Assembly (NCBI GenBank): GCA_902826615.1
Contig: CADEFN010000002.1
Location: 874,671-938,670, forward strand
Origin: an uncultured Gemmatimonadota bacterium
GTDB taxonomy: Bacteria; Gemmatimonadota; Gemmatimonadetes; Gemmatimonadales; Gemmatimonadaceae
Direction: 5' to 3'
Length of the DNA: 64,000 nucleotides
Part shown: positions 4,867-20,588 of the stretch, piece after piece
Position numbering within the stretch: position 1 is the stretch's first letter
Layout: each line of letters begins with the position of its first letter
The notes under the pieces: model-generated
Seen by the model: the letters and a program-made list of their open reading frames with translations, nothing else
The model's database searches: none
What the model was told of the DNA's origin: nothing
Made by a program: the position numbers and the translations under genes

Positions 4867-5945
4867 TGGATTCGTCCCTCGTTGCCACCCTGCTCGCCCT
4901 CATCATGCTGGCGGGAATGAACGTCTACCTTCTGCTGGGCGGAGCCGACTACGGCGGCGGTGTGTGGGACCTCCTTGCCTCGGGTCCACGGAAGGAGCGG
5001 CAGCGGGCCCTCATCGCCGACTCGATCGGGCCAGTGTGGGAAGCCAATCATGTGTGGCTCATTCTGGTGGTGGTCATCCTCTTCACCTGTTTTCCGCCCG
5101 CCTTCGCCACCATTTCCGTTGAGCTGCACATCCCGATCACCCTCATGCTGGTGGGTGTGGTGCTTCGTGGCTCGGCGTTCACCTTCCGCACCTACGACGC
5201 GCAGCATGACGCAGTGCAGCGCCGCTGGGGGTTGATCTTTTCACTCTCGAGTGTGCTGACGCCGGCCTTGTTAGGCATTTGTGCCGGAGCGATCGCTTCG
5301 GGTGCGGTTGGAACGGCCGCTGCAATGGGATCGGTGCCCTTCGCCGACCGGTTTGTGACACCCTGGTTCAATCCCTTTGCCTTTGGCGTGGGTGCCATGA
5401 TGCTGGCGCTGTGCGCCTTTCTCGCCGCGACCTACCTGGCGGTTGAAGCCGGCGACGATGTGGCGCTGCGCGATGACTTCCGGCGGCGCGCCCTGTGGGC
5501 GGCAGGAGCGGTGTTCCTCTCGGCCTTTGGCACCTTGCTCGCCGCGCGACCGCACGCACCGCGTGTCATGGCCACCATGGGCAATCTCGACGCGTCCCTG
5601 CTGCTGCATGTCGCCACTGGACTCTGTGCGCTGGCCGCCATTGGTGCGCTGGTACGGAATCGCCTGCGAGCCGCCCGGGTGTTCGCGGCCCTGCAGACGT
5701 CATGTATCATGTGGGGCTGGGCCCTCTCCGACTTCCCGTACCTCATTCCTCCCGATCTCACGCTGACGGCGGCCTCTGCGCCCGCGGCCACCCAGCGTCT
5801 GGTACTGGGGGCCCTCGCGGTCGGTGCCGTCATCCTGCTTCCCTCCCTCGCGTACCTCTTCCGGGTGTTCAAGCGGCAACCCGCGGTGTTCGGCGAGTTG
5901 CACGAGGAGACCACCGAGTACGCGGTGCCTGCATCTCATGACTAG
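4866..5945 (+). CDS. cydB: Cytochrome bd oxidase subunit II
   Basis: 359 residues, about eight or nine membrane segments. GGADYGGGVWDLL near the N-terminus and PVWEANHVWLI are the hallmark CydB motifs. It is the structural partner of CydA. ATG 4866 overlaps the cydA stop by one base; the frame is open upstream to 4557, but that stretch lies wholly inside cydA. Its 3' end overlaps the next gene (P450) by 8 nt, which is unusual for a cyd operon. No small CydX-type ORF is visible, since there is no room after cydB. Confidence 0.96.
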   Translation: MDSSLVATLLALIMLAGMNVYLLLGGADYGGGVWDLLASGPRKERQRALIADSIGPVWEANHVWLILVVVILFTCFPPAFATISVELHIPITLMLVGVVLRGSAFTFRTYDAQHDAVQRRWGLIFSLSSVLTPALLGICAGAIASGAVGTAAAMGSVPFADRFVTPWFNPFAFGVGAMMLALCAFLAATYLAVEAGDDVALRDDFRRRALWAAGAVFLSAFGTLLAARPHAPRVMATMGNLDASLLLHVATGLCALAAIGALVRNRLRAARVFAALQTSCIMWGWALSDFPYLIPPDLTLTAASAPAATQRLVLGALAVGAVILLPSLAYLFRVFKRQPAVFGELHEETTEYAVPASHD

Positions 5946-7299
5946 TGTTGCCGCCCCACTCCACCGCAAGGAACCGCCAAAGTATCGCCCGGCGTGGCCA
6001 GGGGAGATCCTCGTCCGTCTGCTCCGCGACCCGTTAGGCTACCTGACCGACCTGGCCCGCATACACGGCGATGTGGTCCAGATGCGCAGCAGCGCTCGCG
6101 AGAACGTCTACCTCATCAGCCACCCCGAGCTGATTCGCGAGATCCTCGTCACCAACCAGCGCAACTTCAAGAAGGGGCGCGCCCTCGAGCGTGCGAAGCT
6201 GCTGCTGGGGGATGGACTGCTGACCAGTGAAGGCGACGTCCATCGCCGCCAGCGCCGCATGATCCAGCCCGAGTTTCACCGCCAGCATATCGCGGGGTAC
6301 GCGGAGACCATGATGTCGCTGACCAGCCGCCGGATGTCGCGCTGGTCCGCAGGCACCACGCTCGACATCCACGCCGAGATGGCGGCGCTCACCCTGGGCA
6401 TTGCCGGCTCTACCCTGTTTGGGGCGGAGGTGGAGCACGAGGCCGCCGAGATCGCCACGGCGCTCGACGAGACGTTCACCACCTTCATGCGCACGTTCTA
6501 CCTCCCCTTCGGCGATCTGCTGCTGCGCTTGCCGCTGCCGTCATCGCGGCGCTTCTGGGCCAGCACCCGACGGATCGAGGCCACGGTTACACGGCTGATC
6601 AGCGAACGACGGCGCAATCCCGGCGAGCGCGCGGACCTGCTCTCGCTCCTGCTCAAGGCACGGGACACCGAAGGGGATGGTGCCGGCATGACCGACCAGC
6701 AGGTGCAGGATGAAGTGCTGACCTTCTTCCTGGCCGGACACGAAACCACGGCGAATGCGCTCACCTGGAGTCTCTACCTCCTCGCCCGGCATCCCGAAGT
6801 GGCCCAACGCGTGCGCGAAGAAGCACGTGCGTTAGGCGACCGCACCCTCGTCGCCGACGACCTGCCCCGGCTGCCCTACACCCGCCAGGTGTTCAGCGAA
6901 GTGATGCGTCTCTTTCCGCCGGCGTGGACCATCGCACGCCGAGCCCTCGGCGATTTCGAACTGGGGGGTTACCAGCTCTCGGCCGGCTCGCTGGTGATCA
7001 TGTCGCAATGGGTGGTCCATCGCGATCCGCGGTGGTGGACGGTGCCCGAACGTTTCGACCCCGACCGCTGGGCGAATGAACCGGGGGATCGGCCGAAGTT
7101 TGCGTACTTCCCATTTGGCGGTGGGGCCCGCATGTGTATCGGAGAACACTTCGCATGGATGGAGGGTATCCTCGTCCTCGCCACCATCATGCGTGAGTGG
7201 TCGTTCACGCTCACTTCACAGGACGCCGTTCGGATGCAGCCCTCCATCACCCTGCGACCCAAGGATGGAATCCAGGCGGTCGTGTCCCGTTGCGGGTGA
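5938..7299 (+). CDS. Cytochrome P450
   Basis: 453 residues from ATG 5938, overlapping the end of cydB by 8 nt. Complete P450 landmarks: I-helix AGHETT (~residues 266-271), K-helix E-V-M-R (~321), and the haem loop FPFGGGARMCIG with the thiolate Cys400. No signal or membrane anchor is visible. The sequence style (FFLAGHETTANALTW, ARRALGDFELGGYQL) is that of bacterial class I enzymes related to CYP102/CYP4-like fatty-acid or terpene hydroxylases; the substrate is unknown. There is no ferredoxin or reductase gene nearby, so electrons must come from elsewhere. The overlap with cydB suggests co-translation with the oxidase. Confidence 0.95.
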   Translation: MTSVAAPLHRKEPPKYRPAWPGEILVRLLRDPLGYLTDLARIHGDVVQMRSSARENVYLISHPELIREILVTNQRNFKKGRALERAKLLLGDGLLTSEGDVHRRQRRMIQPEFHRQHIAGYAETMMSLTSRRMSRWSAGTTLDIHAEMAALTLGIAGSTLFGAEVEHEAAEIATALDETFTTFMRTFYLPFGDLLLRLPLPSSRRFWASTRRIEATVTRLISERRRNPGERADLLSLLLKARDTEGDGAGMTDQQVQDEVLTFFLAGHETTANALTWSLYLLARHPEVAQRVREEARALGDRTLVADDLPRLPYTRQVFSEVMRLFPPAWTIARRALGDFELGGYQLSAGSLVIMSQWVVHRDPRWWTVPERFDPDRWANEPGDRPKFAYFPFGGGARMCIGEHFAWMEGILVLATIMREWSFTLTSQDAVRMQPSITLRPKDGIQAVVSRCG

Positions 7300-7372
7300 G
7301 AGATGGGGTAAGGCGGGGCTCCCCTGTCGTGTGTCCATACCGTACCGCTCGTCCACGTCCTCGGCACAAGTC

Positions 7373-8530
7373 ATGTTGACCAATCGACTCGCACATCAGG
7401 TTGCTGTTCTGGCTATGGTCGGGGTGCTCACTGCCTGTGCGGGCGAAGGCAACGGCGTGGTCGACCCACTGAGTGGAGATCCTGCACTCTTTACCTGGGA
7501 TCTCCCCGCCGGAGTCACGCCACCCCCGGTTCCTGCCGACAACCCGATGTCGGCGTCGAAAGTTGAGCTGGGTCGTCGACTCTTTTATGACACCAGGCTT
7601 TCTAGCAACGGCGCTTTTTCCTGTGCGTCGTGCCACCGGCAGGACAACGCCTTTGCCGATGCGAAGAACGTTCCTGTGGGCACAACGGGTGAAGCCCACA
7701 CGCGCAATTCGATGGGGCTGGTGAATGTGGGCTACCAGCGCACCTTCGGCTGGGCGGGGCCCTCCACCACCGCACTCGAAGCCCAGGCGCTGATCCCGAT
7801 GTTCGGCGACGTACCGGTGGAGCTCGGCCTCAAGGGGCGCGAGGCCGACCTGCTGCAGCGTCTCCGGAGTGTCGCCATTTACCAGGAGCTTTTTCCGAAG
7901 TCGTTCCCTGGCACGTCCGACCCCTTTACCGTGCCTAACGTGACGAAGGCCATCAGCACCTTCGAGCGCACCTTCAACGCCTTCAACGCACCAATCGATC
8001 GCTTCCGCCGAGGTGACTCAACGGCCTTGTCGGCGGCGGCGCGACGCGGCCAGAACCTCTTCAATGCACACCGCTGCGCGCAGTGCCATGGCGGCACACT
8101 CTTTGGCGGTCTTTCGGCCACCCCGGGCATGGGGAGTGATGTGGAGTTTGCCAACACCGGGCTCTACAACGTCGGGGGTACGGGAGCCTACCCGGCGAAA
8201 AATGGCGGCCTCTTCGAGACGACGGGTCGCCCGGGTGACATGGGACGCATGAAAGTCCCGTCGCTCCGCAATGTGGCGCACACCTTTCCCTATGCGCACG
8301 ACGGAAGTGTAGGCTCGCTTCAGGAGGTCCTCGACAACTATGCCCGTGGCGGCCGAGCTATCGCGGTCGGGCCTAACGCGGGTGATGGACGGCTCAACCC
8401 GTTCAAGGACCGGCGGGTCAATGGATTCCCGATGAACCCACAGGACCGGCAGGATCTGGTGGAGTTTCTGCGTTCGCTCTCGGACAGCAGCTTTGTCACG
8501 GCGCCGCGGTTCTCGAATCCCTGGCGGTGA
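7373..8530 (+). CDS. Di-haem cytochrome c peroxidase (MauG/CCP family) lipoprotein
   Basis: 385 residues. The N-terminus is a lipoprotein signal ending in LTAC-AG. Two CxxCH haem-attachment sites: CASCH (residues 84-88) and CAQCH (235-239), the spacing expected for bacterial di-haem peroxidases. GRRLFYDTRLSSNG and QDNAFAD around the first haem are family-typical. It probably reduces H2O2 in the periplasm, or acts as a MauG-like oxidase. The frame is open back to 7076, but that region is inside the P450 gene. It follows the P450 by 73 nt on the same strand. A second, distinct paralogue lies at the far end of the window (62367-63800). Confidence 0.93.
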   Translation: MLTNRLAHQVAVLAMVGVLTACAGEGNGVVDPLSGDPALFTWDLPAGVTPPPVPADNPMSASKVELGRRLFYDTRLSSNGAFSCASCHRQDNAFADAKNVPVGTTGEAHTRNSMGLVNVGYQRTFGWAGPSTTALEAQALIPMFGDVPVELGLKGREADLLQRLRSVAIYQELFPKSFPGTSDPFTVPNVTKAISTFERTFNAFNAPIDRFRRGDSTALSAAARRGQNLFNAHRCAQCHGGTLFGGLSATPGMGSDVEFANTGLYNVGGTGAYPAKNGGLFETTGRPGDMGRMKVPSLRNVAHTFPYAHDGSVGSLQEVLDNYARGGRAIAVGPNAGDGRLNPFKDRRVNGFPMNPQDRQDLVEFLRSLSDSSFVTAPRFSNPWR

Positions 8531-8572
8531 CGGGGAGGCGGGATTTTAGAGGACAGAGGGCAGAGGGCGGCG

Positions 8573-9637
8573 TCAGTCAGGTTGCGGCTTCACTTCCTCG
8601 GGCGCACCGTGTTTCGCTACGCGCCACACGGTGCGCTGCGCAGAGTTTGCCGCGAGTGCCGTCTCGAGATCCTGCAGCGGCTCATTGTCCCCATCGTCGC
8701 CCAGCTGCCAGGTCCCAAAGTGAATGGGAATGGCCACACGTGCACCCAGGTCGATACTGGCCTGCACGGCTTCGGCTGGCGTCATGTGGTTCTCCTTCAT
8801 GAACCAGACAGGCATGTAGGCGCCAATTGGGAGTAGGGCCACGTCAGGGGTGCCCACTCGTGCGCGTACGAGGGAGAAGTGCTGGCCATATCCCGTGTCA
8901 CCGCCGAAGTAGACCCGTCCCGATGGACCGGTGAAGACAAACCCGGCCCAGAGTGTGTGTCGCACGTCGGTCTGCCCGCGAGCCGACCAATGCTGCACGG
9001 GCACCGCGTGAACGGTGACACCTGAGATCGACGTACTGTCCCACCAATCCATGTCGCGGGTTCCTGTCACGCCACGCGCCGCGAGGTAGGTGGTGTTCCC
9101 GAGCCCGACGAGCATGGGGGGCTTCTCCGGCCGAGCCGCGAGCCGACGGAGTGTGGGGAGATCCATGTGGTCGTAGTGATTGTGGCTCACAACGACCACG
9201 TCAATCGGGGGAAGGTCGTCCCACGCAATGCCCGGTACACGATGCCGCGCCGGCCCAGCCCAGGACACCGGCGAGGCAAACCGCGAAAAGGTGGGGTCGG
9301 TGAGGATGTTCACGCCGTCCATCTGTATCAGCACCGTCGCATGGTTCACCCAGGTCACGCGGATGGTGCCATCGTTCACATGTTCGGCGGGCCTGGGGCC
9401 GGGTGCCTCGTCAATCCACCTGGTCCACGGACGTTTTTTGCTCGTGAGCTGCCACTTGAGCACATCACGTCCCGTTTTGTCTGGAACGTTGCCGAGGTTG
9501 GAAAAGCGGCGTCCGTCAAAGTGGTCGCTGACCGGCCCGGTCCACGGCTTGGCTGTCATCTGCTGAAAGAAAAGCAGCACAGCACCGACGAGGGCGACAA
9601 CCACGGCAAGAGCGATCAGCAAAGTTCGGCGGAGCAA
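8573..9637 (-). CDS. MBL-fold hydrolase, NAPE-PLD-like
   Basis: 354 residues. An N-terminal hydrophobic segment (LLIALAVVVALVGAVLLFF) anchors or exports the protein. The metal-binding motif SHNHYDHMD (HxHxDH type), HWSARG, GGDTGYG and a C-terminal IPIHFGT match metallo-beta-lactamase-fold phosphodiesterases of the N-acyl-phosphatidylethanolamine phospholipase D group (also annotated UlaG-like). A role on phospholipid or phosphodiester substrates in the envelope is inferred from the family. The reading frame starts with TTG at 9637; no strong ribosome site is visible, so the start is uncertain. It lies downstream of the large TonB receptor on the same strand. Confidence 0.85.
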   Translation of the reverse strand: MLRRTLLIALAVVVALVGAVLLFFQQMTAKPWTGPVSDHFDGRRFSNLGNVPDKTGRDVLKWQLTSKKRPWTRWIDEAPGPRPAEHVNDGTIRVTWVNHATVLIQMDGVNILTDPTFSRFASPVSWAGPARHRVPGIAWDDLPPIDVVVVSHNHYDHMDLPTLRRLAARPEKPPMLVGLGNTTYLAARGVTGTRDMDWWDSTSISGVTVHAVPVQHWSARGQTDVRHTLWAGFVFTGPSGRVYFGGDTGYGQHFSLVRARVGTPDVALLPIGAYMPVWFMKENHMTPAEAVQASIDLGARVAIPIHFGTWQLGDDGDNEPLQDLETALAANSAQRTVWRVAKHGAPEEVKPQPD

Positions 9638-9672
9638 GAGAGTCGGCGGTTGGGAAGAGGCAGATGGCAGAG

Positions 9673-9709
9673 CAACGTTGACGGTTGAGCTCCACCCGTC
9701 AAGCCGTTG
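9673..9709 (-). terminator. Hairpin between TonB receptor and MBL gene
   Basis: Arms CAACG-TTGACGG (9673-9684) and CCGTCAA-gc-CGTTG (9696-9709) pair with a two-base bulge. It lies just after the stop of the receptor gene at 9739 on the minus strand. There is no T-run after it, so it may attenuate rather than terminate transcription. Confidence 0.5.
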
Positions 9710-9738
9710 CCATTACCGTGCCTTCACCGCCGCTGCCC

Positions 9739-12700
9739 TCATCGTCTCCCCTGCCCGGGCCCGCGCGCGGGATTCCGCACGCGAGGCGGCACCTTCGCCC
9801 ACTGCTCGGGAGTCAGCACCGACTGCAAGCGTTTGACCGCCTCTTCATTGTCCTTCCGGATCTGCTCGAGGCGTCCCGTCATGCGACCCATGAGCGCGCC
9901 CATATCCGGATTCGCACCGGCGTTCCGCATGGTCTCCTGGAACTCCTTCGTCAGTGCGGTGGTCTTGGTCGTAATCGAATCGGAGAGCGGCGTCAGGGCC
10001 GCTACCTGCTGCTCGGTGAGCTTGAGCGAATCCTTGAGCTGCAACACGGCGGACACGGGGTTGAAGGCCAGTCCGGCCAGCATACCTGCCCCGGCATTCC
10101 CACCAGCGGCGTTACCGCCCGCGCCAGCTGCGCCGCCACCAAACCCGCCGAAGCTACCGCCCTGGCCGCCCCCGCCGCGAATCATCCCGTTGATCATTTC
10201 ACGCATGCGGTCGGGACCAAGGGTGTAACGCGCCTGGACGCCGATCTGGAATGGCACCGTGATCCCGTTGGCGCCGTTGCGTGTGGCACCAAATCGTTCG
10301 TTGACTTCGTACTTGTAGGCATTGGTGGCCGGATCGAAGCCACGCACGTACAGCAGGGTGTTGTCCTGTCCGCGGAACTGCCCCCAGCCACGAAGATTGT
10401 TCTGGCCGTGCAACATCTGATCGAGCCCGCCCAGGAAGTTCACGGTCAGGAACGACACGGCAAGGCGGCGATTGAGATGCAGGAAGTTGGGGCGCCAATT
10501 GAGCTGGAGGTCGAGGGAGGGCTGCCAGATACCAATGCAGCTGTTACGCGCCGCAATGCCGCCGAGCTGTTTCGTGAGGCACTCACGCACTGAACCCGGC
10601 ACGGTCGACAGGAGCCGCGACATGCCTTGTGCCACCACCGGATCATTGGCCGCCGTCGGATCGAAGAGGAAGGCCCGATCGTTGCGCGAGCCGTCGCCGT
10701 TGATGTCGGCGTTGACCATCGGCGTGAACGGCGACCCCGAGGTCATTCGCCCGAACGCGGTGAGCTCGAGTCCGAGATTGAAGGGATAGTTGACCGTGGC
10801 CACCCAGACATGCCGGCGTTCGAAGGAGGAGCGCGACCACTCGCGGACGTTGGGATTCCCGCCGGTGGTCGGGGCGCCGAATCCACTGACGCCACCACCA
10901 CCGTTGCCGCCACCAAATCCACCAAACCCGCCAAAGCCACCGCCGCCTCCACCAGACCCCTGGTCGCGGGCACGGGCGAAGGTGTACGACAGATTGAAGT
11001 TGGCGCCCTTGCTCGTGAAGCCACCCATCGACAGGGTGGCCTGCTTCGAATCGCTGGAAAGATCGGAGCGTGTCACCAGCACCTGACCGTAGGCGGGATC
11101 GGTGCGCGACGCCAGGACGGTGGTCGCTCCGGTAAAGGGAATCACGGTGGACGCCGGGACAAAGACGGGACGATTCCCTTCACCGGCGAGCGCAAATTGT
11201 GGCGCCGTGCTCAGGTTGGCGTCGAGATATCCCGTTTGCGCCACACCACGGGCGTAGGCCAGGTCGACATTGAGGGTGTAGCGCTGCCAGAAGCGACGGG
11301 TGGCACCTAACGAGGCACGCCAGGCCCGGGAGGCCGCAAAGTCGTCACCGAACACGGTCACATTGGGACGCGCCGTCGGGACAAACTGGTTGCCACCACC
11401 CAGGCAGGCTCCCGGAATGCTGCCGGGGTCGGAGGCAAAGGTGTTCCACGCCGGCACCGGAACAACCGATCCGATGCAGATCAGCTGCGATTCATTGTTT
11501 GGAAGGCCCGTAGCGCCCGCCGCATTGGCCACCAGTCCGGTCGACGGCGCCGACCGGAACTCGCCGATCCCGCCGCGAATCGTCAGGCTCGGCGGTCCGC
11601 CAAACCCGCCAAAGCCGCCTTGGCCGCCGCCACCAGGTCCCGCGCCCTGACGTCCACCCGCTCCGCCCCCCTGCCCGCGACCGCCACCCTGGCCCTGACC
11701 CCCTTGCCCGCCGGCCCCACCTGCTGCCGGTAAACCCGGTGTCCAGGTGAAACCGATCCGCGGTGTGATCCGCACATCCGTTGGCACTTCGTCCGTGCGA
11801 TAGCCGAACTTGGCGTCTACCTCAGGGTTGTAGGCCGGGGTCTTGCCGAAGAACGAACCTTCTCCGCGCAACCCATAGGTGAGCTGCAAACCACGGTTCA
11901 CACGCCAGGTGTCGCCGAGGTAGAGGTTGAGGTTGGTGCCCTGTCCCTCGCGCAGACGCGGCGTCAGAGTGCGCGTGTAGCTGGCCGGCACACCGTTCTC
12001 GAAGTCCTGCAGCGAATTGAAGGTGTACGTGCCCCAGCGGTTAGTCGTGACATCCTGCGTGAACGACGTGGAGTTCACCAGGAGCCCGAGCTTGAGGCGG
12101 TGTCCGTCGGCCACCCACGACACTTCGTTGGTCGCCTCGATGCCGGTGTTGTTCCCTTCCTGGGGAAGCCCGGTGTTGCCGCCGAACGTGAGCGTCGCAA
12201 TACCGGTCTGCCCGGCGTCGAACTGTGACGCCACCTGCACCCGTCCCGCGGGAATCTCGATGAAGGGGCGTCCTTCGTTTCTGTCTTTCGAGAGATAGAA
12301 CTTGAATTCGTTGAGAAAACGCCCGGCAAAGTTCGACGTCACCGTCGTCATGAGCCCGCCACCGACGGAGTTGTTGTTTCCGCCGGTTTGGGGAAGCGCC
12401 AGTGGCCCGATGCGGGCGGGGTCCTGGTCACTCATCCGCCAGTCCCCGCGAAAGGTGATCGAGTGCCCGCCATCGGTGAGGTAGTCGAAGCGCACCAGAC
12501 CCGAGAGATTGTCCGACAGCCGGTCGTCGGCCAGGACACTGAAGGGATTCCCGCCAGCGCCACTCAGCAGTGAGGTGAAGCGCGCGACCGAGTCGGCGTT
12601 CACACCAAAGCGTTCGAGGGTGAGGGCGTCGCTATTGGCCAGCGACGACACCACATCGTTTCGCCGACGCGCCTGCAGTGCGCCAAAGATGAAAAGTTTG

Positions 12701-13584
12701 TCGCGGACGATCGGGCCGCCGAAGCCGCCGGAGAACTGGTTCTGCGTGAAGCCCTGTGCCGCGGGACCGGGGTCTTCACCCTCCACGGCCAGATCCCGGT
12801 CGCGCAGGGAATAGGTGAAGTTGCCCTGCATCGTGTTGGAACCGCCGCGCGAGGTGGACGAAATGAGCCCACCGGAGAATTGCCCGCGCGAGACGTCGAA
12901 GTTGGAGGTTTGCACGCGAGAATTGCGCACGGCCTCCTGTGGCACCGACGCCGAACCGAACGACATGCCGTCGAGTGTGATGTTGTTGGCGTCCGGGGCG
13001 AGGCCGGCAACAGAGAACCCGCCAGCGGTCGAGTCACTCCCGCCAATCGACACCAATCCCGGAGAGAGCAGCGCAAGCTGTGTGAGGTCCCCCGCGTCAA
13101 TCGGGAGCCGCGCCGCCTGATCGGTGTTCACATTCCGCTCGGCCGAACCTGGTGTTGGGCCGTCACGATCCCTCGGGGTGTCCTGCCGCGCGCGAACCTG
13201 CACCGCCGACAGCACCGTCGGGTTTGTCGACAGGACAAAGTCGTGCACCAGTCGGTCCTCGTCGGCATTGCGCAGGACATTGGCTGTTTGTGGGGCCAGG
13301 CCTAACGCGCGCGCTGTGACCCGGTACTGACCACCCCCATCGGGGAAGAGCACGGTGTACTTGCCCTGCGCATTGGTGCGCGTGCGGCGCGTGATGTTCG
13401 ACTCGAGTGAGAGCACCTCGATCTGCGCTCCCTCGAGGGGAAGGTTGCCCTCCGCGCGGCGCACCACACCGGTGATGATGTCGGTGGTGGCACCGATCTG
13501 GGCCAGAGCCTGGCCCGAGCTCAATGCCAGAAAAAGAGCCCCGATGATGAGACGAAAGGGCCCCACTATTGAATGAGATCGCAT
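9739..13584 (-). CDS. TonB-dependent receptor with glycine-rich insertions and a C-terminal LTxxQ (Spy/CpxP-like) extension
   Basis: 1281 residues. Order: signal peptide (1-28, ending ALAQ); carboxypeptidase-regulatory/CNA-B-like domain (~30-115, GVVRRAEGNLPLEGAQIEV and GKYTVLFPDGG); plug (~150-260); outer-membrane barrel. The barrel holds two Gly-rich insertions (DNA ~11590-11730 and ~10880-10965) built on GGQGG and FGGFGG. The last barrel strand appears to be IGVQARYTL; ~159 residues follow it (DNA 9742-10218): another Gly-rich linker, then a helical region with LTEQQVAALTPLSD and LTPEQW, the LTxxQ signature of Spy/CpxP/ZraP periplasmic proteins. The usual C-terminal aromatic of barrel proteins is therefore internal. 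The ligand is unknown. ATG 13584 is chosen because the signal peptide begins there; the frame is open to 13884, inside the divergent gene. Confidence 0.88.
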   Translation of the reverse strand: MRSHSIVGPFRLIIGALFLALSSGQALAQIGATTDIITGVVRRAEGNLPLEGAQIEVLSLESNITRRTRTNAQGKYTVLFPDGGGQYRVTARALGLAPQTANVLRNADEDRLVHDFVLSTNPTVLSAVQVRARQDTPRDRDGPTPGSAERNVNTDQAARLPIDAGDLTQLALLSPGLVSIGGSDSTAGGFSVAGLAPDANNITLDGMSFGSASVPQEAVRNSRVQTSNFDVSRGQFSGGLISSTSRGGSNTMQGNFTYSLRDRDLAVEGEDPGPAAQGFTQNQFSGGFGGPIVRDKLFIFGALQARRRNDVVSSLANSDALTLERFGVNADSVARFTSLLSGAGGNPFSVLADDRLSDNLSGLVRFDYLTDGGHSITFRGDWRMSDQDPARIGPLALPQTGGNNNSVGGGLMTTVTSNFAGRFLNEFKFYLSKDRNEGRPFIEIPAGRVQVASQFDAGQTGIATLTFGGNTGLPQEGNNTGIEATNEVSWVADGHRLKLGLLVNSTSFTQDVTTNRWGTYTFNSLQDFENGVPASYTRTLTPRLREGQGTNLNLYLGDTWRVNRGLQLTYGLRGEGSFFGKTPAYNPEVDAKFGYRTDEVPTDVRITPRIGFTWTPGLPAAGGAGGQGGQGQGGGRGQGGGAGGRQGAGPGGGGQGGFGGFGGPPSLTIRGGIGEFRSAPSTGLVANAAGATGLPNNESQLICIGSVVPVPAWNTFASDPGSIPGACLGGGNQFVPTARPNVTVFGDDFAASRAWRASLGATRRFWQRYTLNVDLAYARGVAQTGYLDANLSTAPQFALAGEGNRPVFVPASTVIPFTGATTVLASRTDPAYGQVLVTRSDLSSDSKQATLSMGGFTSKGANFNLSYTFARARDQGSGGGGGGFGGFGGFGGGNGGGGVSGFGAPTTGGNPNVREWSRSSFERRHVWVATVNYPFNLGLELTAFGRMTSGSPFTPMVNADINGDGSRNDRAFLFDPTAANDPVVAQGMSRLLSTVPGSVRECLTKQLGGIAARNSCIGIWQPSLDLQLNWRPNFLHLNRRLAVSFLTVNFLGGLDQMLHGQNNLRGWGQFRGQDNTLLYVRGFDPATNAYKYEVNERFGATRNGANGITVPFQIGVQARYTLGPDRMREMINGMIRGGGGQGGSFGGFGGGAAGAGGNAAGGNAGAGMLAGLAFNPVSAVLQLKDSLKLTEQQVAALTPLSDSITTKTTALTKEFQETMRNAGANPDMGALMGRMTGRLEQIRKDNEEAVKRLQSVLTPEQWAKVPPRVRNPARGPGQGRR

Positions 13585-13749
13585 GTATGGATGATTTCGA
13601 GGGGCGACGCCCCAACCCCTGTTCGACCGCGTGATCGCGGGTTCGTTAATGCCGAATGTCGCGGTGAAGCGCGGCTTAACGCCCGACCGCCCTATACGTC
13701 TGACAGGGTGAAACTCGTTGTGAATTCGACACTTGAAGGAGTCTGACCA

Positions 13750-14469
13750 ATGCTTGACTATCGAACACCCCTTCTCGCAATCGCGCTCTCCGCACCCCTG
13801 GTGGTGTGGGCCCAGCCCGACCGTCCACGTCGGCCAGACCGGCCTGGCATCAGCGCGAGCGAGCTCCTCGACGCCCGCCGGCATCTCGACCTCTCTCCAC
13901 GCCAGGTCGCCCGACTCGACTCGATCGAGCGTGCAGAATTCCGGCGCCGTGACGCGATGCGCCAGCGGATGACCACGCTCAGGGATTCCGTCTGTCCAGG
14001 TCGCCAGCGCTGCGACCTCAGTTCAGAACAGCGCCAGACACTCCGTCAGAGAATGGATGCGCTTCGTGATACCCGTGGTGACTCCGTCGGCCGCTCCATG
14101 GCGATGGGCCTTCTCGACAGCACACAGCGGGGACGTGTGCAGGGTTGGCGAATGAGCCAGGGTCGCGGTATGCAGGGTCCGCGAGGCTTTGGCCCCGCAA
14201 CGCGAGGCCGTGGAAACGCTCCTGGGTTCCGCGGAGGCGGGGGCTTTGAACCGCAGCGCGGCTTTGGCCCCGGAATGCGGGGACGTGGATTTGGGCCTGG
14301 AATGGGGCCGGGGGGTGGCGGCGCGTGGAACGGTCGCGGCGGGAACGGCGGGCCGGGCTGGGATCGCCAGATGGGCCCAGATCGCCCACTACCCCCCGTT
14401 GAGCGTCAGGGTCGCCGTCCCCGTCGCGGCGGCGGCGAGCTGGATACGTTGCCCGACAGCACACGCTGA
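13750..14469 (+). CDS. Exported LTxxQ (Spy/CpxP-like) protein with Gly/Arg-rich tail
   Basis: 239 residues, good ribosome site AAGGAG ahead of ATG 13750. Signal peptide (~1-21, ALSAPLVVWAQ). A helical domain carries two diverged LTxxQ motifs: LDLSPRQVARLDSI and CDLSSEQRQTLRQRM, as in Spy/CpxP proteins. Two cysteines (VCPGRQRC) could form a disulfide. From ~residue 130 the protein becomes a low-complexity tail of RGRG, RGFGPG and GGGG units, unusual for a periplasmic protein. It is divergent from a TonB receptor that ends in an LTxxQ domain and Gly-rich linker, 165 bp apart, suggesting shared regulation or physical partnership (inference). Confidence 0.8.
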   Translation: MLDYRTPLLAIALSAPLVVWAQPDRPRRPDRPGISASELLDARRHLDLSPRQVARLDSIERAEFRRRDAMRQRMTTLRDSVCPGRQRCDLSSEQRQTLRQRMDALRDTRGDSVGRSMAMGLLDSTQRGRVQGWRMSQGRGMQGPRGFGPATRGRGNAPGFRGGGGFEPQRGFGPGMRGRGFGPGMGPGGGGAWNGRGGNGGPGWDRQMGPDRPLPPVERQGRRPRRGGGELDTLPDSTR

Positions 14470-14477
14470 GTTTGGGT

Positions 14478-14502
14478 AGGCCCCCGCATACGGCGGGGGC
14501 CT
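14478..14502. terminator. Bidirectional hairpin between convergent genes
   Basis: Perfect 10-bp stem AGGCCCCCGC / GCGGGGGCCT (14478-14487 with 14493-14502), 5-nt loop, 9 nt after the stop of the LTxxQ gene and 46 nt beyond the stop of the minus-strand receptor. There is no clear T-tract on either side, which is common in high-GC genomes. Confidence 0.75.
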
Positions 14503-14548
14503 GCGGGCCCGTCCCGGGGTTTGTGACGCTCGCGCGAGTGGGGACGGG

Positions 14549-16639
14549 TCAGCGAGCGCCACGGACCGAAAGTGCCACGTACACCCGACGACCCGCCCCT
14601 GGCTCGAAGAAGCGGCCCCGCGTCGCGTTCGTGACAACATTCGCACTGTAGGTGCGGCCAAAGATGTTCTCCAGGCCAATCACAGGCTCGATTCCCCGGA
14701 AGGTCGCGCCTGTGAGACCAGTCCGCGCATTCCACAACACATACCCGGGCGCATAGTTGAGGTTGGCGTCGTCGGCTGCGCTGCGCGATGCCTGCTGCAC
14801 TTCCAGGGTCACAAAGCCCCACGAACGGCGACCCGTCGCAAAGAGCGAGGACGTCAGTGGTGAGACCCCCGGCACATCGTTGCCGTCGAGCACCGTTGTC
14901 CCCACGCGAAAATCCTCGTAGCGATACCGCAGGGTGGCCACCGACGCGCCGATGTCCACGGCGCCCAGCACGGCGGTGAGCCCCAGCTCCGCCCCACTTC
15001 GCGACGTTTCACCGGCATTCCTGAAGTAGCGCCGCCCCCCGCTGTTGGGGATCTCGAACGGGATCAGCTCATCGGTGGTTCGAATGCGAAACAGGGCCAC
15101 GTCGTACAGGAGACGCCCGCCCAGCAGCCCCTTGGCACCCGCCTCGAGTGTGCGACCACGCTGCGGGTTGAGCTCCCGATTGAGACCCCCCTGACCATTC
15201 GGCTGGTTGGCCAGCTCGGTGGTGGTTGGTGTCTCGAACGAACTCGCCATGTTGGCGTAGAGAGACATCCCCACACGCGGACGCACCGTCACACCAATCA
15301 TCGGCGTCACCGCCCCCATGTTGATCGATTCGATGAGGCCGAGCGTGGAGCGACGGTCTCGCACATTGAAGTTTGTCCGGTCGCCGCGCAGCGTCGCCGT
15401 CATGGTCAGGCGCGACCGCGTCACCTCACCACGCGCAAAAACACCCGCCGAGGTCACCTTCTCCAGCTGATGGATGTTTTCCACGCCCTGATTGGCGGAG
15501 GTCGGGCAGGTGGCAATGGGGCGCTGCGTGCCGGTAAGCCCGGCGCAATTGGAAAAGTTGCGGCGGTCGTCACGCTGCGAGAGGAGGTCGGCGCCTGCCG
15601 ACAAGCGCCAGAGATGCCGACGCAACAGACCTCCGTGCTGCACCCTCGACGTCACCCCGGTCATGTAGCGATTGAATCCGACAATCGCGAAGGCCTGCGG
15701 GTTGTACAACTCACGCTCGGCGCCGAACACACTCGCGCTGGCGCTCCCACCATCCCACGACCGATCGGCCACAAGGGACACCATCTTGTGGTTGACGGTC
15801 TTGCTCGCCAGTCGCCGGATATTCTGCGAATCGGCAATCACCAGACCTCGCGACAGCTCACTCGCCGTGAGCGCCCCGGGATTCTCACCTTCTGGCGTGT
15901 CATAGTATGTGAACTGGGCGCGCAGCATGGTTTCCCCAACTTTTCGCTGCAGGTCGGCGAGCCCTGCGGTGGAGCGGAAGCGCGCGTAATCACGGGGGCC
16001 GTCGCTGGTGTTACGCGTGAGGGTGCCCTGCCAGCCCCAACCGCTGCCGCCGCCCGCCACCGACGCCGAATACCGCTCGGCATCTTCGTTCCAGGTTCCG
16101 CGCAGCTGCCCGCGCACACCGCTGGCCGGGAGTGGCGCACTTCGCAAATCCAACACCCCGCCTGAGGCATTTCCGTAGAGTGCGCCTGCCGCCCCACGCA
16201 TCACTTCGGCGCTGCCCACCGTCTCCAGATCCACAAAGTCGATGGCCGACTGGCCGTCGGCGAGGGTGAGAGGCACTCCATCGCGAATCACGCGCAACCC
16301 ACGGATGCCAAAGGCCGAACGCGCGCCAAAACCGCGCACCGACACCCGTGGATCCTGCGTGGGGTTGTGGCGGTTGGAAGCCGTGAGCCCGGGGACCGTA
16401 ATGAGAAGATCGGTCAGCGACCCGCGCCGGGCACCAGTGCGAGCACTATCCATGGAGAGCCGCGACACACTGAACGGGAGTTCGAGTGTGGAACGCGAAG
16501 CGTCACGGGTCACGGTCACGCGGACTGGACGCAGAGTCTGAGTGGCGGCTGTGTCTCGTGTGGTCTGCGACCCAAGCACCATGGGCGAGCAGGCCAGTGC
16601 CAGGGCGAGCGCGCGGATCGGGGGTGTAGAAAAGGACAT
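14549..16639 (-). CDS. TonB-dependent outer-membrane receptor (FecA/siderophore-receptor type)
   Basis: 696 residues. Signal peptide (ALALALACSPMVLGSQ), then a plug with LLITVPGLTASNR, RVSVRGFGARSAFG, RGLRVIRDGVPLT and EVMRGAAGALYGNASGG, all standard TonB plug features. The barrel ends RVYVALSVRGAR. Unlike the other two receptors here it has no carboxypeptidase-regulatory domain and matches the classical iron-chelate receptor length. The QTLRPVRVTVTRD stretch after the signal could serve as TonB box. The substrate is probably a ferric siderophore or other metal chelate, but nothing in the context proves it. It is convergent with the LTxxQ gene and divergent from hsp20. Confidence 0.9.
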   Translation of the reverse strand: MSFSTPPIRALALALACSPMVLGSQTTRDTAATQTLRPVRVTVTRDASRSTLELPFSVSRLSMDSARTGARRGSLTDLLITVPGLTASNRHNPTQDPRVSVRGFGARSAFGIRGLRVIRDGVPLTLADGQSAIDFVDLETVGSAEVMRGAAGALYGNASGGVLDLRSAPLPASGVRGQLRGTWNEDAERYSASVAGGGSGWGWQGTLTRNTSDGPRDYARFRSTAGLADLQRKVGETMLRAQFTYYDTPEGENPGALTASELSRGLVIADSQNIRRLASKTVNHKMVSLVADRSWDGGSASASVFGAERELYNPQAFAIVGFNRYMTGVTSRVQHGGLLRRHLWRLSAGADLLSQRDDRRNFSNCAGLTGTQRPIATCPTSANQGVENIHQLEKVTSAGVFARGEVTRSRLTMTATLRGDRTNFNVRDRRSTLGLIESINMGAVTPMIGVTVRPRVGMSLYANMASSFETPTTTELANQPNGQGGLNRELNPQRGRTLEAGAKGLLGGRLLYDVALFRIRTTDELIPFEIPNSGGRRYFRNAGETSRSGAELGLTAVLGAVDIGASVATLRYRYEDFRVGTTVLDGNDVPGVSPLTSSLFATGRRSWGFVTLEVQQASRSAADDANLNYAPGYVLWNARTGLTGATFRGIEPVIGLENIFGRTYSANVVTNATRGRFFEPGAGRRVYVALSVRGAR

Positions 16640-16785
16640 GCCGGAAAGTGGCGCGTGTCACCCTCCCAAGGAATCCCGGCCAAGCCTGCCGAGACGACAG
16701 CCCACCTGTCAGCGCGACTCCTTCGGCATCGCAAAGGGCGCCAAGGTGACACATCCGGCCGGGCACGGCCCCTGCCCCTTCTCTC

Positions 16786-16795
16786 ACTCGCGAGT
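16786..16795. promoter_or_regulatory. Palindrome ACTCGCGAGT upstream of hsp20
   Basis: A perfect 10-bp palindrome 53 bp before the Hsp20 start, in the divergent region. It is followed by TCGCGA and GACTC half-repeats. It could be an operator, but it does not match CIRCE (TTAGCACTC-N9-GAGTGCTAA) and may be chance in GC-rich DNA. Confidence 0.25.
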
Positions 16796-16848
16796 CGCGA
16801 ATGACGACTCCACCAACCGCGATTCACTGAATGCCAGGAGCCTTTTTC

Positions 16849-17283
16849 ATGCGTACCGTTCCCCCCCTCAATCACGTGCTCGACCGGATGGTCACCCTTT
16901 CGCGCGCCATGGACGACGCCTTCAACGCACCGGCCAATGGGCACGGCGTCACCAGCTGGTCACCCGCCCTCGACACTGCGGAAACCGAACAGGCATACAT
17001 CGTGTCGGTGGATCTTCCGGGCGTGAAGGCCGGCGACGTGGATGTCCACTTCGAGCGTAACACCCTCACGATCAAGGGCACACGCGGCGCACAAACGAGC
17101 GACAGCGAGCCTCGGCCCTTCATTCGCGAGCGAGTCTTCGGCAGCTTCGCCCGCTCGCTGCGCTTTCCGCAGCACGTGGAGGGCGACCGGATTTCGGCGG
17201 CCTTCAGCAATGGGGTGCTGACCGTGACCGTGCCCAAGTCCGAAAGCACCAAGCCACGCAAGGTGGAGATCGTCGCGGCGTAA
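16849..17283 (+). CDS. Small heat shock protein Hsp20/alpha-crystallin
   Basis: 144 residues. The alpha-crystallin domain is clear: SWSPALDTAETEQAYIVSVD begins it, LPGVKAGDVDV and NTLTIKGTRG follow, and AAFSNGVLTVTVPK carries the G-V-L signature. A holdase chaperone that keeps denatured proteins soluble. I prefer ATG 16849 over the in-frame ATG 16831 because AGGAG (16836-16840) sits at the right distance before it. It stands alone between a divergent receptor and the protease cassette, with a hairpin after it. Confidence 0.94.
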   Translation: MRTVPPLNHVLDRMVTLSRAMDDAFNAPANGHGVTSWSPALDTAETEQAYIVSVDLPGVKAGDVDVHFERNTLTIKGTRGAQTSDSEPRPFIRERVFGSFARSLRFPQHVEGDRISAAFSNGVLTVTVPKSESTKPRKVEIVAA

Positions 17284-17291
17284 CCGCCGAG

Positions 17292-17326
17292 CGGGTGAGG
17301 GGTGGCAACGCGCTGCCCCTCACCCG
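17292..17326 (+). terminator. Hairpin after hsp20
   Basis: 11-bp stem CGGGTGAGGGG / CCCCTCACCCG (17292-17302 with 17316-17326), starting 9 nt after the Hsp20 stop. No T-run follows. Confidence 0.65.
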
Positions 17327-17442
17327 GGTTCCACTCCCCCGAACGTCCGAGTGTTGCAACGGCGTCGTCGCCCCGAGGTTGGGAGCAGTCCCGTGTGGCA
17401 CCCCTTCTGCTCGCCACCAGCTCTCACTTCCCCGGTTCCCCA

Positions 17443-18354
17443 ATGACTGCCCTGCAATCCCTCTCTGACGACCTGGCCGCTGCGGTCGATCGTGCCTCAG
17501 CTGCACTGGTCTCGGTGCACGCGCGCCGTCGTATTCCTGCCTCCGGCATTCTCTGGAAGCCGGATGTGGTCATCACCAATCACCATGTCATCCAGCGCGA
17601 AGAAGGGATCAAGGTCACGCTGGCCGATGGCACCACCGTTGGTGCCACCCTCGCCGGCCGTGATCCGGCCACCGACATCGCCGCGTTACGGCTCGAACGT
17701 CCGGCGCCCACAAGCGCCGCGCTCGGTCATGGTCCGCTCAAGGTCGGCCAGCTCGTCCTGGCGTTAGGCAGGCCTGGCCCGGCGGTTACCGCCGCGCTTG
17801 GTGTCGTGAGCTCCGCCGGGGGCGAATGGCGTACCTGGAGCGGAGGGCGCATCGACCAGTTTGTCAGCCTCGACGTGTCCATCTACGACGGCTTCAGCGG
17901 TGGGGCCCTCGTCAACTCGGCCGGTGAAATCGTCGGCATGAACTCATCCGGACTGTCGCGTGGGGCGGCGATGACCATTCCCTTCCCGACAATCATCCGG
18001 GTGGCCGAGCAGTTGCTCACCAGCGGGCACATGCGCCGCGGGTATGTCGGAGTCGGGTTGCAGTCGGTCCGGCTGCCGTCGGCAATTGCGTCGCAGCTCA
18101 CCCCCGCGCGTGACGTGGGACTGATGGTGGTGAGCGTCGACGATGGTGGCCCGGCCGCGCTGGCCGGGTTGCACATCGGCGATGTCATCGTGGCGTTCGA
18201 CGGGCACCCCGCCTCCGAACCCTCGGAAATGCTCGCGCAGCTCACCGGCGACCGGATCGGGCAGATAGCGGCGGTCCGTGTGCTTCGCGCAGGTGCTTTT
18301 GCCGATTTGTTACTCACGGTTGGTGAACGCCCGGCGCGAGCCGGCAGGAGATAG
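17443..18354 (+). CDS. Trypsin-like serine protease with C-terminal PDZ domain, no signal peptide
   Basis: 303 residues. Chymotrypsin/HtrA-type triad: His in ITNHHVI, Asp in ATDIAAL, Ser in DGFSGGAL. A PDZ domain follows (GYVGVGL, GPAALAGLHIGDVIVAFDG). The order is that of the DegP/HtrA (S1C) family, but the protein is short and has no visible signal or membrane segment, so it is probably cytoplasmic. ATG 17443; the frame is open to 17302, through the hsp20 terminator region. It is separated by 4 nt from a second protease gene and begins a three-gene cassette with a LuxR-type regulator. Confidence 0.88.
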   Translation: MTALQSLSDDLAAAVDRASAALVSVHARRRIPASGILWKPDVVITNHHVIQREEGIKVTLADGTTVGATLAGRDPATDIAALRLERPAPTSAALGHGPLKVGQLVLALGRPGPAVTAALGVVSSAGGEWRTWSGGRIDQFVSLDVSIYDGFSGGALVNSAGEIVGMNSSGLSRGAAMTIPFPTIIRVAEQLLTSGHMRRGYVGVGLQSVRLPSAIASQLTPARDVGLMVVSVDDGGPAALAGLHIGDVIVAFDGHPASEPSEMLAQLTGDRIGQIAAVRVLRAGAFADLLLTVGERPARAGRR

Positions 18355-18358
18355 CGCG

Positions 18359-18967
18359 ATGCGCACAATCCCGGTGGAAAACGACCTCTCCGGCCTGGCT
18401 GCGCTCGTGCGCAGCTGGACGGTGGAGGTGGCGGGCGTCGATGGCGAGGGCAGGGGGAGCGGAATCCTCTGGCATCCCAATGGGCTGATCGTGACCAACG
18501 CCCATGTCGTGGCACGCACCACCCGTCAGCGCATCAAACTCGCCGACGGGCGCGAGGCCGAGGGCAAGCTGCTGCTGCGCGACGATCGCCGCGATATCGC
18601 GCTGATTCAGTCGGGTATTTCCGGTGCCCCCGATCTCCCGTTAGGCAACCCGCAGGCACTCGCACCCGGCGCTCTTGTCCTCGCGCTGGGCCATCCCTGG
18701 GGGGTGGCGAATGCCATGTCGCTTGGTGTGGTCCACGGAGTGTCACTCGACCGGCGTGGATTTCCGCGGTACATCGCCGCCGACGTGCGACTGGCCCCCG
18801 GAAACTCCGGCGGTCCCCTGGTAGACGCCACCGGCCGCCTGGTCGGCGTGAACGCGATGATCGTCGGCGGGCTTGGTGTGGCCATTCCGGTGAATGTGGT
18901 GCAGCGCGTCGTGCGAGAGGCGTCGCAGTCGGGGGCGCTTCCCTTTCCTGAAGCGTTCGCCGCGTGA
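18359..18967 (+). CDS. Trypsin-like serine protease without PDZ, no signal peptide
   Basis: 202 residues. Triad: His in VTNAHVV, Asp in RRDIALI, Ser in PGNSGGPL. It ends soon after the protease domain, so it lacks the PDZ of its neighbour and is a minimal HtrA-like catalytic unit. No signal peptide is seen. ATG 18359 lies 4 nt after the previous stop; its own stop overlaps the GTG start of the regulator by 4 nt (GTGA), so translation of all three genes looks coupled. A substrate, or processing of its partner protease, cannot be inferred from sequence. Confidence 0.87.
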   Translation: MRTIPVENDLSGLAALVRSWTVEVAGVDGEGRGSGILWHPNGLIVTNAHVVARTTRQRIKLADGREAEGKLLLRDDRRDIALIQSGISGAPDLPLGNPQALAPGALVLALGHPWGVANAMSLGVVHGVSLDRRGFPRYIAADVRLAPGNSGGPLVDATGRLVGVNAMIVGGLGVAIPVNVVQRVVREASQSGALPFPEAFAA

Positions 18968-19611
18968 GCCGTCTGGTTCTCATTGCGCCGTCTCGCCTGG
19001 CGCTGGCCTCACTCGAGGCCGGCCTGGGCGACGACCCGCAGGTGACGGTGGTGAGCCGCGCCACACACCTCGACGCGGCCATGCGTCCGCCCATTACTCT
19101 GGGCGCGAGTGTCGCCATTGTGGCCGTGGACGATGTGGCGTCCATCCGGCTCGCACTCGCCGGGAGCGACGAAGAGCACACCCCGCTCCCGATGGTGCTG
19201 CTGGTGCCCCCCGATGACCTCACGGATGCTGTTGCTCTCTTGTCTTCGGGGCGTGTGCGTGCCGTGCTCCCTCGGCATGCGTCAGCCCGGGAAATTCTGG
19301 CCGCCGTCGATGCGACACTCAGTGGCCTGGTGACACTCACACCAGACGCCGTCGACATACTCATGCGCAACGCGACACGAACCCCGGTGCGTCTTGCCGC
19401 GCCGACCGGGCTGGTGCCTTTGTCGCCACGCGAGCGCGAGATCCTGGCCCTGGTTGCCGACGGGCTTGGCAACAAGATCGTGGCCGCGCGGCTCGGCATC
19501 TCGGAGCACACGGTCAAGACCCATGTCACCTCGATCTTCACCAAACTCGGCGCCGAGTCACGCGCCGAGGCCGTGGCCATCGGGGCACGAATCGGGGCGC
19601 TGATGTTGTAG
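18964..19611 (+). CDS. LuxR/NarL-type regulator with degenerate receiver domain
   Basis: 215 residues from GTG 18964. The C-terminus is a clear GerE/LuxR helix-turn-helix: LSPREREILALVADGLGNK, ISEHTVKTHVTSIFTKLG. The N-terminal ~130 residues have the length and strand/helix pattern of a receiver, but the acidic pair near residue 8 is missing (LIAPSRLA), the phosphoacceptor strand reads VAIVAVDD, and the conserved Lys position reads LPRHAS. It therefore probably does not respond to ordinary phosphotransfer. It is co-translated with two proteases, so it may be regulated by, or regulate, proteolysis (inference). Confidence 0.85.
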   Translation: MSRLVLIAPSRLALASLEAGLGDDPQVTVVSRATHLDAAMRPPITLGASVAIVAVDDVASIRLALAGSDEEHTPLPMVLLVPPDDLTDAVALLSSGRVRAVLPRHASAREILAAVDATLSGLVTLTPDAVDILMRNATRTPVRLAAPTGLVPLSPREREILALVADGLGNKIVAARLGISEHTVKTHVTSIFTKLGAESRAEAVAIGARIGALML

Positions 19612-19691
19612 CCGGGTCGGCACTCAAACCTTCCCCGGGAATGGGTTGTCAGATGTTGCGCACGTCCTGACCGTCCCACACTGTCACACCC

Positions 19692-20588
19692 ATGCGCTCA
19701 CCTCTCATTCTTGCAGCCCTCGCCGCCGTTGCGTCCAGCGTGTCGGCCCAGGATATCGTCGGTCGTCGGGACCGCACCTTCTCGCTCTCAGAGCAAATTG
19801 CCTCGGGCGGGCGGGTGAACATCTACAATCGAACCGGCATGATCACGGTCACCGAAGGCTCCGGTACCACGCTGCAGTATCGCGCGGAGAAGGAGCGGGG
19901 CGACGCGGACGACATCGGCTTCGTGATCCTCAAGGAGGGCGGCGGAATCACCATCTGCGCCGTGTACGACGAAGACGACCAGTGTTCGGATCGTGGCTTG
20001 AATCGTTCGCGTCGCGAGCGTCGGCGCAACTGGGGCGATCGCGCCCGCGCCAATATCACGGTGTCGGTGCCGCGCGGCACCATCCTCCGCGCCTCCTCCG
20101 GCAATGGTGAGGTGTCGGTGACCGCGGCGGTGGCAGAGGCGAGTGTGGTGAGCGGCAACGGCAAAGTGCGCGTGTCGGGTGTGCGGGGTCGCGTGGATGC
20201 CTCGACGGGCAACGGGGTGGTGAGTGTGGACGATGTCGAAGGACCGGTGAAGGTCTCGTCAGGCAATGGCGACATCACGGTCGGCACCGTTCGGGGCCCG
20301 GTGAATGCCTCGTCAGGCAACGGCGACGTGATTGTGCGGATGTCGCGCCTCGACGGCACCGACGATATGGAGTTCTCGTCAGGCAACGGGCGCATCGAGG
20401 TGACAGTGCCGGGCGACTTCAGCGCCGAGGTGGATGCGTCGACCGGCAATGGGCGTATCACCACCGACTTTCCCATTCGGGTGGTGGGTCGCCTTCAGCC
20501 CACCAGGTTACGGGGCACCATCGGTGATGGCGGACGCAAGCTGCGGATGTCGACCGGGAACGGCTCGATGGAGATCAGGAAAAGCTGA
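19692..20588 (+). CDS. Exported DUF4097-family beta-solenoid protein with SGNG repeats
   Basis: 298 residues. Signal peptide (AALAAVASSVSAQ). The second half is built of eight repeats of about 19-25 residues, each with S-S/T-G-N-G followed by alternating hydrophobic residues (EVSV, KVRV, VVSV, DITV, DVIV, RIEV, RITT, SMEI). This is the pattern of DUF4097 (putative adhesin/auto-transporter-like) proteins and implies a right-handed beta-helix with a ladder of asparagines. An Arg-rich stretch (NRSRRERRRNWGDRAR) separates it from the N-terminal strand region. Function unknown; surface or periplasmic location is inferred. A strong hairpin follows. Confidence 0.85.
   Translation: MRSPLILAALAAVASSVSAQDIVGRRDRTFSLSEQIASGGRVNIYNRTGMITVTEGSGTTLQYRAEKERGDADDIGFVILKEGGGITICAVYDEDDQCSDRGLNRSRRERRRNWGDRARANITVSVPRGTILRASSGNGEVSVTAAVAEASVVSGNGKVRVSGVRGRVDASTGNGVVSVDDVEGPVKVSSGNGDITVGTVRGPVNASSGNGDVIVRMSRLDGTDDMEFSSGNGRIEVTVPGDFSAEVDASTGNGRITTDFPIRVVGRLQPTRLRGTIGDGGRKLRMSTGNGSMEIRKS

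Follow-up and report, generated by a model that had tools for sequence, protein, structure and literature searches.

Among the genes of the window, by which we mean the whole stretch of 64,000 nucleotides analysed here, a TonB-dependent receptor continues well past the apparent end of its barrel, and a small gene encoding an exported protein diverges from it. Given this arrangement, we wondered whether the extension is a domain in its own right, how widely it is shared among related receptors, and whether receptor and divergent gene form the two-part system that an earlier note on this DNA had proposed.

The receptor and its C-terminal extension

The receptor and the parts of its extension are laid out as follows:

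9739..13584, minus strand: receptor P0001, 1281 aa, Oar-type TonB-dependent receptor with a C-terminal LTXXQ domain (Pfam)
10216..10257, minus strand: region of the last barrel strand, residues 1110-1123 (VPFQIGVQARYTLG); the Bacteroidota homologues and the family members without a tail stop here
10066..10215, minus strand: Gly-rich linker, probably flexible, residues 1124-1173
9742..10065, minus strand: LTXXQ/Spy-like helical domain with a basic Gly/Arg end, residues 1174-1281 (Pfam, AlphaFold2, VIA-align)

The frame of P0001 starts with an ATG at 13584, stops at 9739 on the minus strand, and encodes an N-terminal signal peptide (approximately residues 1-28). Pfam assigns residues 37-118 to CarboxypepD_reg (PF13620; 54.1 bits, cut-off 32.3) and residues 346-1028 to the OMP_b-brl_4 barrel (PF25183; 130.9 bits, cut-off 30); the plug-domain profile PF07715 gave no match in P0001 in the Pfam search, and no N-terminal STN signalling domain was found among the Pfam matches up to E = 1. 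We refer to P0001 as Oar-type because Oar shares its N-terminal architecture (PMC6434023). The final barrel strand, VPFQIGVQARYTLGPD, begins at residue 1110. Two plasmid-borne homologues from Bacteroidota (Rufibacter and Spirosoma) align to P0001 only through residue 1122, and the annotated genes of both end one codon past the equivalent of that residue. Since these homologues, like the tail-less family members described below, end at or near the last strand, the 159-residue extension of P0001 lies outside the barrel, which bears out the earlier estimate of about 159 residues past the last strand. Both termini of TonB-dependent barrels are on the periplasmic side, and the extension should therefore be periplasmic.

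The Gly-rich linker and the two motifs that had been read in this extension were both located (LTEQQ at residues 1189-1193 and LTPEQ at 1257-1261); across the receptor family, the linker has a median length of 39 aa by our script's definition. The proposed LTXXQ-like character of the extension held up in profile searches: the Pfam LTXXQ profile (PF07813; cut-off 24.3) matches residues 1182-1264 with 26.5 bits in the whole protein and with 32.7 bits when the domain is searched on its own. The P0001 tail is also the top-scoring LTXXQ match of its 5.9-Mb genome, and 25 of 37 family tails match the profile at E up to 0.01. An AlphaFold2 model of the tail built from 37 sequences is a confident helical domain (pLDDT 91, pTM 0.76) with helices at H18-49, H55-83 and H86-91. 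When compared with VIA-align, this model gave Z-scores of ~6.3-6.6 against CnrX, Spy and CpxP, which is under the tool's safe level for helical bundles, and of 6.8 against STV and Skp, values that are not decisive for helical bundles. Foldseek with the tail model returned no match at E up to 0.001, and the tail sequence gave Gly-rich and chance matches only against solved structures. The sequence profile outweighs the structural Z-scores as evidence for the LTXXQ identity of the tail.

The conserved positions of the tail comprise the L and Q of both motifs, D1185, D1202, D1227, W1262 and P1266. Across 93 domains, L and Q are conserved at 94% and 94% in the first motif and at 91% and 96% in the second, and L1189, Q1193 and P1266 are invariant among 24 full-length receptors that are 31-82% identical to P0001. 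His and Cys make up 0.5% and 0.0% of residues in the tail domains, and the 93-domain conservation analysis found no conserved His, Cys or Met column. The tail core carries almost no net charge (mean +0.7). Within the genus, dN/dS is 0.34-0.41 for the tail domain and 0.10-0.16 for the barrel, ratios that are rough because dS is near saturation; a value below 1 yet above that of the barrel fits an exposed binding domain. Taken together, the extension is an LTXXQ/Spy-family helical domain outside the barrel. It is neither a part of the barrel, given where the homologues end, nor an unrelated coil, given the profile score, these being two of the outcomes that the earlier note had named as speaking against its claim. 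A chance motif or coil was likewise ruled out as the identity of the tail by profile score and conservation.

Spread and history of the tail

Many receptors in 60 related genomes were matched through the tail. The fetched loci, some of them fetched twice, contain 108 complete receptor frames, of which 102 carry the tail, five are tail-less and one is a split gene (L099); leaving the split gene aside, 102 of the 107 complete family members have the tail. Each tail-less receptor (L134, L135, L137, L152 and L154) finishes with the last strand or a short way past it. A scan of the phylum with a tail profile found the tail in 273 of 395 genomes, representing 102 of 138 genera; most of the frames that carry it are 1200-1400 residues long. 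A distant paralogue in the same genome as P0001 (L038) has it too. The fusion is no one-off but the rule for a large receptor family across Gemmatimonadota. In a search with the full-receptor alignment, the best 80 loci were from Gemmatimonadota save two unassigned ones. Other phyla were sampled through a plasmid collection alone.

In the receptor tree, members without the tail fall within groups that have it, a pattern that requires at least three changes. Because of this nesting, loss is simpler than repeated gain, suggesting that the tail is ancestral in the family and was lost about three times.

The divergent gene and other neighbours of the receptors

The region around the receptor contains the following further features:

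7250..8530, plus strand: MbnH-family di-heme enzyme (TIGR04039, 414 bits, cut-off 363)
13585..13749, no strand: divergent intergenic region, 165 bp, with TTAAC invariant in 5/5 genus members
13750..14469, plus strand: P0002, 239-aa exported helical protein with degenerate LTxxQ motifs and a Gly/Arg-rich tail
14549-16639, minus strand: second TonB-dependent receptor, without an LTXXQ tail (best NCBIfam match PqqU, 224 bits, far under the cut-off of 1200)
16831-19611, plus strand: consecutive genes for Hsp20, two HtrA-like proteases and a LuxR-type regulator

P0002 is Arg-rich, has an apparent signal peptide, and carries the motifs LSPRQ and LDSTQ as well as two cysteines (Cys 82 and Cys 88) that are invariant among the genus orthologues. 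It scores under both Pfam cut-offs (LTXXQ, 14.3 vs 24.3; Metal_resist, 18.3 vs 29.2), the LTXXQ matches of the five genus orthologues are all weak (best E 0.001), and a profile comparison of P0002 with the receptor tail gave a probability of 57%. The top structural rows for its model (whole-model pLDDT 60) were CpxP (Z 7.9), CnrX (7.2), NccX (6.8) and Spy (6.7). This weak sequence and fold evidence suggests that P0002 belongs to the same superfamily as the receptor tail. The earlier description of the divergent gene as a second LTxxQ protein with a Gly/Arg-rich tail is thus right as to the gene and its tail, but its motifs are degenerate and its scores sub-threshold.

In the neighbourhood survey, P0002 adjoins the receptor in 5/5 genus genomes and in no other genus examined. 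The receptor/P0002 pair as a general system was ruled out on these grounds. In the intergenic region, TTAAC is possibly a promoter or operator element; no sigma-70-like promoter was found in 13500-14600, and no RNA family in 5000-20000. TTAAC is also ~12x denser in the 200 bp before receptor starts than in a mostly coding background, in a count for which the receptor starts were guessed by a script, several of them wrongly.

Other free LTxxQ genes do recur beside the receptor. A tail-only profile detected small LTxxQ genes within ~1 kb upstream of the receptor in the genus and at loci L051, L057, L136, L144 and L148. A second LTxxQ profile adds L128 and has L059 among its seeds; as it was seeded with near hits as well as other hits, its enrichment is biased. 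With this profile, free LTxxQ genes of seven lineages fall 0-1 kb upstream of receptors (~83 kb), against two free LTxxQ genes, both at one locus (L123), at 2-8 kb (~614 kb; L057 genes belonging to its second receptor set aside), and none falls 0-1 kb downstream. Since L051 and L057 lie in one clade of the receptor tree, the independent cases of adjacency are fewer. Outside the genus, about five lineages have free LTxxQ genes just upstream of their receptors, above the expectation from the surrounding DNA. Most receptors in the phylum have no adjoining LTxxQ gene, and a strict Pfam LTXXQ scan of 41 genomes (E up to 5e-4) turned up no strong free LTXXQ gene in the few kilobases around a receptor, so that such adjacency is confined to a minority of receptors and involves divergent LTxxQ genes. 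Thus the two-part idea fails for P0002 outside its genus, while the recurrence of other LTxxQ genes in about five further lineages makes a functional link plausible.

At three of these loci (L051, L057 and L136), the receptor is directly preceded by free LTxxQ genes together with a gene for an ECF sigma factor. At L059, an ECF sigma gene, a gene for a small membrane protein and one for a membrane-anchored LTxxQ protein follow one another in this order and lead up to the receptor. In Gemmatirosa kalamazoonensis, a cultured relative, the 1.1-Mb plasmid record has receptor, free LTxxQ gene and ECF gene side by side. Most receptors, P0001 included, have no ECF gene next to them. We also observed that at L051 and L057 the ECF sigma gene upstream of the receptor has a Spy-like gene on one side and another LTxxQ gene on the other, a layout like that of CnrYXH.

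The remaining neighbours show some conservation of their own. The MbnH-family gene is convergent with the receptor, with another gene between them in the window, and such an enzyme lies near the receptor also in genomes G001, G015 and G030, with a blast-level match at L081; we count it as context of the receptor. No MbnP was found beside the receptor, and the genome carries its canonical MbnP/MbnH pair on a different contig. In G009 (L050) and G015 (L063), the gene that diverges directly from the receptor is Hsp20. The second TonB-dependent receptor is a conserved neighbour in several relatives.

Possible roles of the tail and known systems

Any explanation has to start from what was computed, namely that there is such a domain, that it lies past the barrel, that it is conserved throughout the family and that nested members repeatedly lack it. 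The reading we tentatively prefer, at a little short of an even chance, is that of a tethered periplasmic domain that binds clients or partners. An Oar-type transporter would have gained a Spy/CpxP-family helical domain early in Gemmatimonadota, and the Gly-rich linker would tether it to the periplasmic end of the barrel. There the domain may bind proteins, as a holdase on a tether or as a docking site, and capture a client or partner at the transporter's inner mouth. Candidates would be cargo, the barrel or plug during assembly, or a second LTxxQ protein; P0002 and other free LTxxQ proteins might serve as accessory partners or co-chaperones in some lineages. In favour of protein binding we count the Pfam score, the helical model and its best structural matches, the spread, the invariant residues, dN/dS, the upstream LTxxQ genes and the lack of conserved His, Cys or Met in the tail. 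Against it stand the modest structural Z-scores and the near-neutral tail core, Spy being positively charged. As some family members do without the domain, transport itself is probably independent of it.

A signalling role, which we consider rather unlikely, would have the tail pass on the state of the transporter, or stress in the envelope, to a free LTxxQ protein resembling CnrX or CpxP and, in lineages that have one, to an anti-sigma/ECF sigma pair, in the manner of CnrYXH or FecA-FecR. It would account for the ECF sigma and free LTxxQ genes upstream of the receptor at L051, L057 and L136, for the ordered cluster at L059 and for the enrichment of free LTxxQ genes within 1 kb upstream of receptors, but most receptors, that of the window included, have no ECF gene beside them, no STN domain was found in the receptor, and the tail is without metal ligands. 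We give marginally less credence to a wider proposal, in which these receptors would be a lineage-wide transporter class whose built-in periplasmic chaperone or sensor arm docks with free LTxxQ proteins and, in some species, sets off an ECF sigma response, thereby coupling outer-membrane transport directly to envelope-stress signalling. Slightly more doubtful again is a structural role without chaperoning, whereby the tail would dimerise as Spy, CpxP and CnrX do and cluster receptors, or anchor them to peptidoglycan or P0002. LTxxQ-fold proteins are usually dimers, and the long Gly-rich linker and basic C-terminal end agree with such a role; the Pfam search, however, matched no peptidoglycan-binding domain in the tail.

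Metal sensing or buffering as in CnrX and ZraP, tied to metal uptake by the receptor, is improbable. The superfamily does include metal sensors, P0002 has its two invariant Cys, and in the closest clade the receptor lies near an MbnH-family enzyme, whose known partner MbnP binds copper. Yet the tail domains are nearly devoid of His and Cys and conserve no His, Cys or Met position, so that metal sensing by the tail, as the earlier note had entertained, is disfavoured; as a metal sensor in itself, the tail was set aside on this absence of conserved ligands. The least credible reading, and one largely refuted by conservation, is that of a passive remnant or artefact, either an unconstrained coil or a gene-fusion scar: the tail does evolve faster than the barrel and is missing in some nested members, but its dN/dS is well under 1, its motif L and Q are 91-96% conserved in the 93 domains, and it is present phylum-wide.

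The literature searched yielded no account of a TonB-dependent transporter that ends in a periplasmic domain of a chaperone family, and no paper on LTXXQ-TonB fusions. Here, such a tail is the rule for a large receptor family in a phylum of common soil bacteria, and the naturally tail-less members serve as controls. Should the tail bind protein, this would speak for a part of Oar-type transporters in handling proteins; should it signal, it would connect the outer membrane to the regulation of envelope stress by a new path.

Oar of Myxococcus xanthus and Oar-type transporters share with P0001 the N-terminal CarboxypepD_reg domain (here PF13620) and the outer-membrane barrel (here PF25183), and a published survey classes receptors by their N-terminal additions (PMC6434023). 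The two Bacteroidota homologues that we checked end at the last strand, whereas the Gemmatimonadota receptors add a C-terminal LTXXQ domain. With Spy/CpxP (PF07813), the tail shares two LTxxQ motifs, a helical hairpin, a predicted periplasmic location and an above-cut-off profile score; Spy and CpxP are free, whereas the tail is near neutral and tethered to an outer-membrane transporter. CnrX, NccX and ZraP show a modest fold match to the tail and P0002, and a CnrYXH-like gene layout occurs near the receptor in a few lineages, but these are metal sensors, while the tail has no conserved His/Met ligands and no ECF gene adjoins the receptor of the window. FecA-type transducing receptors likewise combine a TonB receptor with an extra periplasmic domain, which in FecA is an N-terminal STN domain and here a C-terminal LTXXQ domain.
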